Part shown: positions 32,890-61,884 of the stretch, one piece after another
Layout: each line of letters starts with the position of its first letter
Position numbering within the stretch: position 1 is the stretch's first letter
Assembly: GCF_008933115.1 (NCBI RefSeq)
Contig: NZ_WBVO01000001.1
Coordinates: 620,001 to 684,000 of the forward strand
DNA length: 64,000 bases
From: Phaeocystidibacter luteus
Lineage (GTDB): Bacteria > Bacteroidota > Bacteroidia > Flavobacteriales > Schleiferiaceae
Direction of reading: 5' to 3'
Program-made: the position numbers and the translations under genes
The notes under the pieces: model-generated
Database searches by the model: none
Seen by the model: the letters and a program-made list of their open reading frames with translations, nothing else
What the model was told of the DNA's origin: nothing

Positions 32890-33240
32890 CATGGAGGGTT
32901 AGAGGGTTGGATGGCCAGAGGGTTAGACTGGCAGACTGATGTTCCGACTGAAAGGAGGAATCCCGAGAGGCAGAGCCGATTCGGGAGAGGGTTAGAGGGT
33001 TGGAGGGCCAGAGGGTTAGACTGGCAGACTGATGTTCCGACTGAAAGGAGGAATCCCGAGAGGCAGAGCCGATTCGGGAGAGGGTTAGAGGGTTGGAGGG
33101 CCAGAGGGTTAGACTGGCAGACTGATGTTCCGACTGAAAGGAGAAATCCCGAGAGGCAGAGCCGATTCGGGAGAGGGTTGGAGGGTCTGACTAGTGTGCC
33201 GAATGAAAGACGAATCCGAAAAACGCGCTCGATTCGGGAC
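32890..33240 (-). repeat. Tandem repeat array, 3 units of 93 bp plus a degenerate unit
   Basis: Three nearly identical 93-bp units and a decayed fourth. Read on the minus strand each unit holds CCCGAATCGG, CTCTCGGGATTCC, TCGGAACATCAGTC and AACCCTCT octamers, the same family as the arrays at 58-62 kb. The block is open in one plus-strand frame (93 is divisible by three), but units elsewhere are 77 and 85 bp long, so it is not a gene. Confidence 0.9.
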
Positions 33241-33364
33241 TGACTGTAAGGAAAAGTCTCGCTAGTCAGAGCCTATGAGGTGAATGATGGGAATCATCGG
33301 CGCAATTGCAAGAAAGTCCTGCAAGAAGTCAGTTGTGTTGGATGACGAATCTTTTGGGGCTATA

Positions 33365-33545
33365 GGGGCTGGTTAGCCCCTCCCCGGTCTCAAGTTCGGA
33401 TAAATGATTAACAAGCGTGTACTTCTGAAAGGGACATCTGGTGGACATCGATCATTGTGAAAATCTAGCCGATTGTAAACGTAAAACACACGACTCATAT
33501 CGACCAACAGACGTAACTTGAGACTGGGGCGGGGTTTCAGTCCCC
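33365..33545. repeat. MITE-like element, copy 1
   Basis: The left end (33365-33396) and the reverse complement of the right end (33515-33545) share the pattern GGGG...CCCC-CCCC-GTCTCAAGTT, giving imperfect terminal inverted repeats of about 31 bp around 118 bp of AT-richer, non-coding sequence. A related copy in reverse orientation lies at 57761-57928. No transposase is present. Confidence 0.6.
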
Positions 33546-57760: not shown

Positions 57761-57928
57761 GGGGCCCCATCCCCTCCCCAGTAGTCAAGTTCGGTAAATC
57801 CCAATGGCTAGTCGGAGGACAAACGTTTACAAACGGATAATCATGTGAATCACGCATTCGACTACTGAGATTCGCTCATTCTGACGCTTGTTAATTAACT
57901 TGAGACTAGGGAGGGGCTAACCAGCCCC
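57761..57928. repeat. MITE-like element, copy 2
   Basis: The left end (57761-57791) and the reverse complement of the right end (57897-57928) share the same pattern as copy 1. The right end matches the left end of copy 1 over GGGGCTGGTTAGCCCCTCCC and GTCTCAAGTT, so the copies are in opposite orientation. Interior similarity is patchy (ATTAACAAGCGT; TTGTAAACGT). No reading frame. Confidence 0.6.
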
Positions 57929-58133
57929 CTACCCACTAGATTACATACCAGCGCTCCTGATTCATTAGACTTTCAGCCTTAGGCGAGGAGCAAGAATCCA
58001 CAGAATACAGCTTTTTCAATAATCAGATTCAATTCCCAAACAATACCAGTCGAAATCTCGTTTGTTTTGTAATTTGACCAAGCCTCATCAAATCCTAAAT
58101 CAATACACCTCATTTCAACCGGTCCAACTCTCT
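57929..58133. other. Gene-free stretch between MITE copy 2 and the repeat core
   Basis: No reading frame or strong signal. It includes TTAGGCGAGGAGCAAG, weakly similar to the AGGC word family. Probably decayed repeat sequence. Confidence 0.3.
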
Positions 58134-58182
58134 CCCGAATCGGCTGCGCCTCTCGGGATTCCTCCTTTCAATCGGAACATCA
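58134..58182 (+). repeat. Single core of the hairpin repeat family
   Basis: One repeat core (CCCGAATCGG-CTGC-GCC-TCTCGGG, then GATTCC..GGAACATC) without a clear octamer tail, upstream of the pirin gene and in the same direction. The loop differs (TGC) while both stem arms of hairpin 1 are kept. The following bases to 58258 are rich in TTAGTCY and contain no gene. Confidence 0.8.
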
Positions 58183-58258
58183 GCTACTGAGTTAATTAGT
58201 CCATTTGTCCAAAAGTCTATTAGTCTATCCCCCCATTAACCCACTAATCCAACACCCC

Positions 58259-59156: not shown

Positions 59157-59706
59157 GGCCTGCCCGTCCAACCCTCTCCCGAATCGGTTTCGCCTCTCGG
59201 GATGCCTCCCTTCGGTCGGAACATCAGTCTGCCAGTCTAACCCTCTGGCCATCTAACCCTCTAACCCTCTCCCGAATCGGCTCCGCCTCTCGGGATTCCT
59301 CCCTTCGGTCGGAACATCAGTCTGCCAGTCTAACCCTCTGGCCATCTAACCCTCTAACCCTCTCCCGAATCGGCTTCGCCTCTCGGGATGCCTCCCTTCG
59401 GTCGGAACATCAGTCTGCCAGTCTAACCCTCTGGCCATCTAACCCTCTAACCCTCTCCCGAATCGGCTCCGCCTCTCGGGATGCCTCCCTTCGGTCGGCA
59501 CATCAGTCTGCCAGTCTAACCCTCTAACCCTCTCCCGAATCGGCTTCGCCTCTCGGGATGCCTCCCTTCGGTCGGCACATCAGTCCAACCCTCTAACCCT
59601 CTAACCCTCTAACCCTCTCCCGAATCGGCTCCGCCTCTCGGGATGCCTCCCTTCGGTCGGCACATCAGTCCAACCCTCTAACCCTCTAACCCTCCAACCC
59701 TCTGGC
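59157..59706 (+). repeat. Array of six hairpin-repeat units
   Basis: Six cores start at 59178, 59271, 59364, 59457, 59534 and 59619. Spacings are 93, 93, 93, 77 and 85 bp, all differing by multiples of eight, the length of the tail unit AACCCTCT. Each core holds two hairpins: CCCGA..GGC-loop-GCC..TCGGG and GAT-GCC or TCC..GGC or GGA-ACATC. The array ends 34 bases before the ATG of the WG-repeat gene. Confidence 0.92.
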
Positions 59707-61750: not shown

Positions 61751-61884
61751 CTCCAACCCTCTCCCAAATCGGCTCCGCCTCTCGGGATTCCTCCTTTCAG
61801 TCGGAACATAAGTCCATAAGTCCAACCCTCTAACCCTCTAACCCTCTAACCCTCTAACCCTCCAACCCTCCAACCCTCCAAAAA
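61751..61884 (+). repeat. Hairpin repeat with extended octamer tail abutting a start codon
   Basis: One core (start 61763; CCCAAATCGG, GGATTCC, CGGAACATA) followed by eight or so AACCCTCT/CCAACCCT octamers, the last of them ending four bases before the ATG at 61885. The tail therefore occupies the place of the ribosome-binding site and promoter of the DUF1697 gene. Confidence 0.88.

Follow-up and report, generated by a model that had tools for sequence, protein, structure and literature searches.

Repeat cores and linkers in the window

The window, a 64-kb stretch of the Phaeocystidibacter luteus genome, carries short repeats in gaps beside genes for an ADH-family protein, a pirin, a WG-repeat protein, and a DUF1697 protein (Table 1). 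Each core is 56 bases long and consists of two imperfect hairpins placed back to back, with hairpin 1 (H1; TCCCGA-atc-GGC-TNC-GCC-tc-TCGGGA) followed directly by hairpin 2 (H2; TNCC-tc-CY-TNC-RG-tc-GGNA; in both, lower case marks conserved unpaired internal loops). Both hairpins are built alike: a conserved unpaired internal loop separates the outer stem from a short inner one, and the triloop is T-N-C, read as G-N-A on the other strand. A preliminary description, made from the letters of the window, had listed eleven cores, all of which were recovered in place by a model search (77–84 bits), together with a decayed twelfth on the minus strand (~16 bits) absent from that list. The variation it described was likewise recovered: the H1 arms are fixed with only two exceptions (one base each in cores 59174, C>T, and 61759, G>A) around loops of TCC, TTC, TGC, or TCT; H2 occurs in two paired states (TGCC/GGCA in three cores and T-A at the same pair in six), with mismatched G-A intermediates in the cores at 59174 and 59360; and the H2 tip is seen as both CC-TTC-GG and CT-TTC-AG. 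Folded as DNA, most of the copies tested took essentially the expected shape on both strands with modest z-scores (approximately −1.6 to −2.3), the exception being one copy at locus L022 with a second half that folded differently; folding energy by itself would not be evidence for structure. Elsewhere in the window are a Bacteroidales small SRP RNA (RF04183; 47349–47456, 96.6 bits) and two copies of a GAGACCGGGGAGGGGCTAACCAGCCCC-type intergenic hairpin repeat (57905–57935 and 33370–33400), which is seen again near the array at L024.

Table 1. Positions of repeat cores and octamer linkers, numbered from the first base of the window.
Feature	Position	Strand	Details
Core (H1+H2), lone copy	58130–58185	+	ADH-family gene/pirin gene gap; 77.2 bits
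Core 1, six-copy array	59174–59229	+	H2 G-A mismatch; H1 T-G wobble
Core 2, six-copy array	59267–59322	+	H2 pair T-A
Core 3, six-copy array	59360–59415	+	H2 G-A mismatch
Core 4, six-copy array	59453–59508	+	H2 pair G-C; H1 59456–59481, H2 59482–59500
Core 5, six-copy array	59530–59585	+	H2 pair G-C
Core 6, six-copy array	59615–59670	+	H2 pair G-C
Core, lone copy	61759–61814	+	5′ of DUF1697 gene; H1 arm G>A
Core, minus-strand array	32934–32989	-	
Core, minus-strand array	33027–33082	-	
Core, minus-strand array	33120–33175	-	H2 T-G wobble
Decayed twelfth copy	33189–33242	-	16.3 bits, E 0.0096
Octamer linker	59225–59268	+	CCTCTAAC/AGTCTGCC-type units; shift-8 self-match 0.72
Octamer linker	59576–59616	+	shift-8 self-match 0.82
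Octamer tail	59661–59705	+	last core to next gene (WG-repeat protein)
Octamer tail	61805–61880	+	ends just 5′ of DUF1697 gene ATG; shift-8 self-match 0.88

Cores within an array are direct repeats, and the distance between neighbours was 53, 61, 77, 85, 93, 101, or 109 bases (45 + 8n) in 24 of 35 cases, such that spacing equalled 5 modulo 8 far more often than expected (p = 2e-14, for copies that are not independent of one another). This spacing arises because the linkers consist of 8-base units, degenerate octamers such as CCTCTAAC and AGTCCATA, which are lost or gained whole; the octamer phase is kept, and linkers match themselves at 0.62–0.88 when shifted by 8 bases compared to ~0.1–0.4 at other shifts. 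Along the array of six cores, TTC and TCC take turns as the H1 loop and copies 1 and 3 share the same H2 state, from which it follows that the array grew by duplication and, in turn, that the window alone holds few independent changes. The repeats have thus multiplied locally, in tandem and in direct orientation, with 8-base linker units between the copies. The preliminary description had set selection on structure against simple duplication, a contrast that proved false, as tandem duplication is clear, with linkers stepping by 8 bases, and both processes occur. A CRISPR-like array was rejected, as unique spacers are missing and the linkers are octamers. Short tandem GGAACTTCCAGTC-type units lie directly 3′ of H2 in several copies (L012, L013, L015, and L027).

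Copy number, distribution and gain of repeat blocks

Within the genome (3.21 Mb in 27 contigs) there were 71 exact matches to CTCTCGGGATNCCTCC (reversed control, 0), many more than chance would give, and a search model built from 70 distinct copies returned 94 matches, located on most large contigs and in both orientations. The family occupies roughly 40 intergenic sites, and all 38 clusters examined lie between longer ORFs. Among 88 genomes of the family Schleiferiaceae, the sole exact match outside the P. luteus genome, an apparent copy in genome G030 (L040), fell inside a gene and was rejected as chance; apart from this match, the exact pattern was absent from the two sister species. Searching 296 genomes of the order with the model yielded nothing beyond two weak single matches, a lone H1 with the loop AAA (G021) and an H2-type repeat with the sequence GATTTCTCCCTTCGGTCGAAATGACA (G266), and an exact-pattern scan across phyla (own-genome records excluded) returned scattered single matches in unrelated phyla with weak model scores. 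The search of the genome and its relatives that the preliminary description proposed sets ~94 copies here against essentially none in the two sister species and the 296 genomes of the order, and the two-hairpin unit is for this reason an expansion in one species, P. luteus. A plasmid search using a neighbouring gene gave no match, and a literature search using the repeat sequences gave nothing relevant.

In yajC-ybbR, a conserved operon, the gap with its repeat block measures 480 bp in P. luteus, whereas the gaps of the two sister species measure 116 and 85 bp and each contain a plain terminator-like stem and T-run; in P. luteus the block sits after the genome’s own terminator-like stem. This difference implies that blocks have been gained in intergenic space, which may have occurred through transposition of a single unit or through the exchange of bigger, composite segments. 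Several loci have longer mosaics in common, in which other hairpins follow one another in the same order. At L016, L018, L022, and L035, small hairpins split by AAGG are followed by CCACGGGGCTTTAGCCCGTGG hairpins and then by H1/H2 cores, and one of the AAGG modules, TGCCTCCCTGCGGTCGGCA, is itself a hairpin of the H2 type. Separately, a longer repeated block (GCAAAAAGCAAAACCGCAATAGATAAAGGCGTGAGAYGTGAGCCATCAGGCTTGA...) occurs 5′ of the cores at L014 and L015, loci that are ~10 kb apart.

The spread of copies over most large contigs in both orientations would be compatible with a double-stranded or cruciform site, duplicated and kept for chromosome organisation, to which gyrase or a nucleoid or recombination protein binds, and E. 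coli REP/BIME elements have been described as binding several proteins (PMC2817692). The family is missing from both sister species, which argues against a conserved chromosomal role and leaves this reading very improbable.

Paired changes in hairpin 2

A shuffle test for covariation between paired positions was applied to the 70-row alignment of copies from the genome, in which the structure gave 95.7% paired cells, compared to 24–51% when one arm was slid along the other. Double changes were found in 28 cells against 7.6 expected in shuffles, with none of 500 shuffles reaching 28, and almost the whole signal came from two H2 pairs, columns 34-50 (T-A, 53; G-C, 7; A-T, 3) and columns 40-44 (T-A, 46; C-G, 17). 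Sorted by site, the G-C state of columns 34-50 occurred in five fetched regions and the A-T state in two, and lasting mismatches were found at the same columns as A-C in three fetched regions (six copies at L030 and L032 and one more in L024) and as G-A in the window. The H1 arms had zero double changes in this alignment and are therefore no test of structure, either way. The loop was T-N-C in 65 of 70 H1 and 62 of 70 H2 hairpins.

Related copies within one genome are not independent, and the comparison was therefore extended to other genera. The H2 pattern GATTYCTCCYTNCRGTCGRAA, which lets both arms vary independently between Y and R, was found in 21 of 395 Bacteroidia genomes (13 of 197 genera), including 51 exact copies of the hairpin in P. 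luteus (22 + 29), whereas the reversed pattern was matched in none of the Bacteroidia genomes listed. The other 20 genomes contributed 103 listed copies, in which the outer pair was T-A in 68, C-G in 35, and mixed in none, and the tip pair was C-G in 82, T-A in 18, C-A in two, and T-G in one; both states occur together in one genome, G504. The T and C of the loop are preset by the pattern, so that only the middle base is informative, and at that base all four bases occur. Outside P. luteus, TGAC[AG] comes after H2 in almost every copy read, which makes YGTCA on the opposite strand; in the window family the place of TGAC is taken by CATC, CCTCC, or CTTCC, and H2 is preceded by a fused H1. Pairing across genera is strong and largely independent support for a stem that is kept paired, and the cross-genus covariation is firm evidence that the hairpin itself is the thing maintained. 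The window H2 thus belongs to a repeat that extends across the class Bacteroidia, with an outer and a tip pair that change in concert. The preliminary claim that structure is maintained accordingly stands for H2, on both the within-genome and the cross-genus counts, and does not extend to H1.

Paired changes of this kind could also be mutational, if one arm templates the other (quasi-palindrome correction) or copies convert each other around a functionless fold. DNA hairpins are known substrates for template switching, array copies share states that alternate in blocks, implying frequent duplication and exchange between copies, and recombination between T-A and G-C copies could account for the G-A state at 59174 and 59360. 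Against such an origin, which is considered unlikely, H1 is a longer palindrome in the same core and has no double changes, the mismatched A-C states last, and the internal loops stay mismatched and conserved where arm-templated repair should tend to perfect them. As the internal mismatches are conserved and H1 is without double changes, the evidence leans towards selection on H2 over arm-templated repair.

Strand orientation, transposase genes and known repeats

The preliminary description had considered RNA or a cruciform the probable form of the maintained structure. A structured RNA in mRNA leaders or 3′ ends, acting in stability, attenuation, or protein binding, would fit copies that lie between genes, and as RNA the tip of H2, CCTTCGG, might fold into a cUUCGg tetraloop. 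The gene on the 3′ side is on the same strand in 24 of 38 clusters and on the opposite strand in 14, a preference that is not significant (p = 0.14) and rests on gene calls taken as the longest open frames, such that individual strand cases may be off. Between co-directional genes the split was 14 to 7 (not significant), 10 of the 38 clusters lie between divergent genes, and seven are antisense to both neighbours. The main array had no match in Rfam, and no terminator-like T-tract was found in 59157–59706, where an intrinsic terminator was rejected as no T-run follows the stem. The alternative tip C-T-TTC-A-G, further, breaks the UUCG tetraloop and keeps the triloop pair. The RNA reading is therefore not borne out and is held to be improbable.

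Among DNA folds, GNA triloops have been described as exceptionally stable (Yoshizawa 1997, cited in PMC6479982), and the T-N-C/G-N-A loops suggest that the maintained fold is DNA. The E. coli TnpA-REP enzyme needs a conserved unpaired zone in the REP stem, and its activity is abolished when a regular stem is restored (PMC8266576). The absence of strand bias, of a T-tract, and of an Rfam match, together with the GNA loops and the conserved unpaired zone of the stem, favour, though they do not prove, the view that what is read is one strand of DNA in its folded form.

Three Y1 (PF01797; IS200/RAYT-like) transposase genes are present in the genome (L009, L010, and L011), each between copies of its own, different hairpin family in a REPtron-like arrangement, with 12-mers repeated 9, 9, and 3 times at the three loci. 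None of the three lies beside H1/H2 in this 27-contig draft (99.9% complete, so that there is only a small chance of a gene lying in a gap), no H2 hairpin was found near the Y1 loci fetched from H2-carrying genomes or genomes of the family, and a link to one of the three genes was rejected, as those genes are embedded in different hairpin arrays. Y1 genes occur in 17 of the 20 other H2-carrying genomes (class background, 260 of 395) and are slightly commoner with H2, though not significantly so (18 of 21 H2-positive vs 242 of 374 other genomes, p = 0.06).

On a narrow balance of probability, the family is an orphan repeat of REP-like DNA hairpins, with kinship to the CGTC-tagged REPs, that would be spread by a trans-acting enzyme and amplified locally in tandem. 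Pairing in H2 would be kept because the enzyme that copies or pastes the hairpin recognises it as folded single-stranded DNA, much as HUH (Y1) TnpA-REP enzymes read REPs; this enzyme would act in trans and be encoded away from the repeat, and slippage or unequal recombination within the octamer linkers would let arrays expand and contract. That a Y1 enzyme mobilises the family is inferred. A bolder proposal, regarded as quite improbable, casts the family as a self-contained mobile unit of two hairpins that represents a new mechanistic class, an orphan repeat in which paired hairpins and 8-base linkers would both take part in one single-stranded DNA copying reaction by a non-Y1 enzyme that also spreads CGTC-type REPs across phyla.

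As a short palindrome present in many intergenic copies, the window family is a REP in the broad sense; neither the curated match nor the fixed transcribed strand of a structured RNA family was found for it. One close counterpart is the Bacteroidia-wide repeat formed by the H2 relatives in 20 other genomes ([CT]GTCATTYCGACYGNAGGGAGRAATC on the minus strand), for which no published name was found. The window H2 is identical to it over a 21-base core (e.g., GATTCCTCCTTTCAGTCGGAA in G504, from another family) and has the same internal loops, triloop, and covarying pairs, but the Bacteroidia-wide repeat has TGAC[AG] after the hairpin and is without H1, whereas the window family is fused to H1 with TGAC replaced.

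CGTC-tagged REPs include Neisseria dRS3 and Rickettsia RPE-4/6 (Di Nocera et al. 2013, PMC3733652) and apparently lack a dedicated transposase (PMC3733652). The window family is similar in consisting of short intergenic palindromes without a dedicated transposase (no H2 at the fetched Y1 loci), and H2 relatives outside P. luteus share the CGTC/TGTC tag and stems starting with AT; with YGTCA at the start and AT as the first stem bases on the other strand, these relatives fit the CGTC-REP description. In the window family itself, however, the CGTC (or TGTC, CCTC) tag is missing, with GATG in its place on the minus strand, H2 has 4 + 2 pairs, internal loops, and a triloop rather than an 8–9 bp stem and a loop of 4–5 bases, and copies are direct and tandem rather than head-to-head dimers. 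For the question of how CGTC-type REPs move (PMC3733652), a species that has amplified one such hairpin ~94-fold, with close relatives that are without the two-hairpin unit, is a good place to seek the enzyme.

GTAG-REPs and REPINs with a RAYT (TnpA-REP) resemble the window family in their imperfect hairpin, conserved internal mismatch, high copy number, and intergenic location, and the three P. luteus Y1 genes do sit in REPtron-like hairpin arrays, not of the H1/H2 type. Unlike those systems, the window family has GT[AG]G on neither strand of its consensus and flanks no cognate Y1 gene, and a REPIN/BIME arrangement was rejected as there are no inverted pairs and array copies are direct. The ‘atypical’ REPs of subclass 2.6 TnpA-Y1, mainly from Bacteroidetes and flanking the transposase gene (PMC6006769), share with the window family the phylum and hairpins without GT[AG]G, but adjoin their own transposase gene, which the window family does not. 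The window family is thus of an ordinary, REP-like kind and of an unusual build, with no tag and no linked enzyme, and with octamer linkers joining units of two different hairpins.
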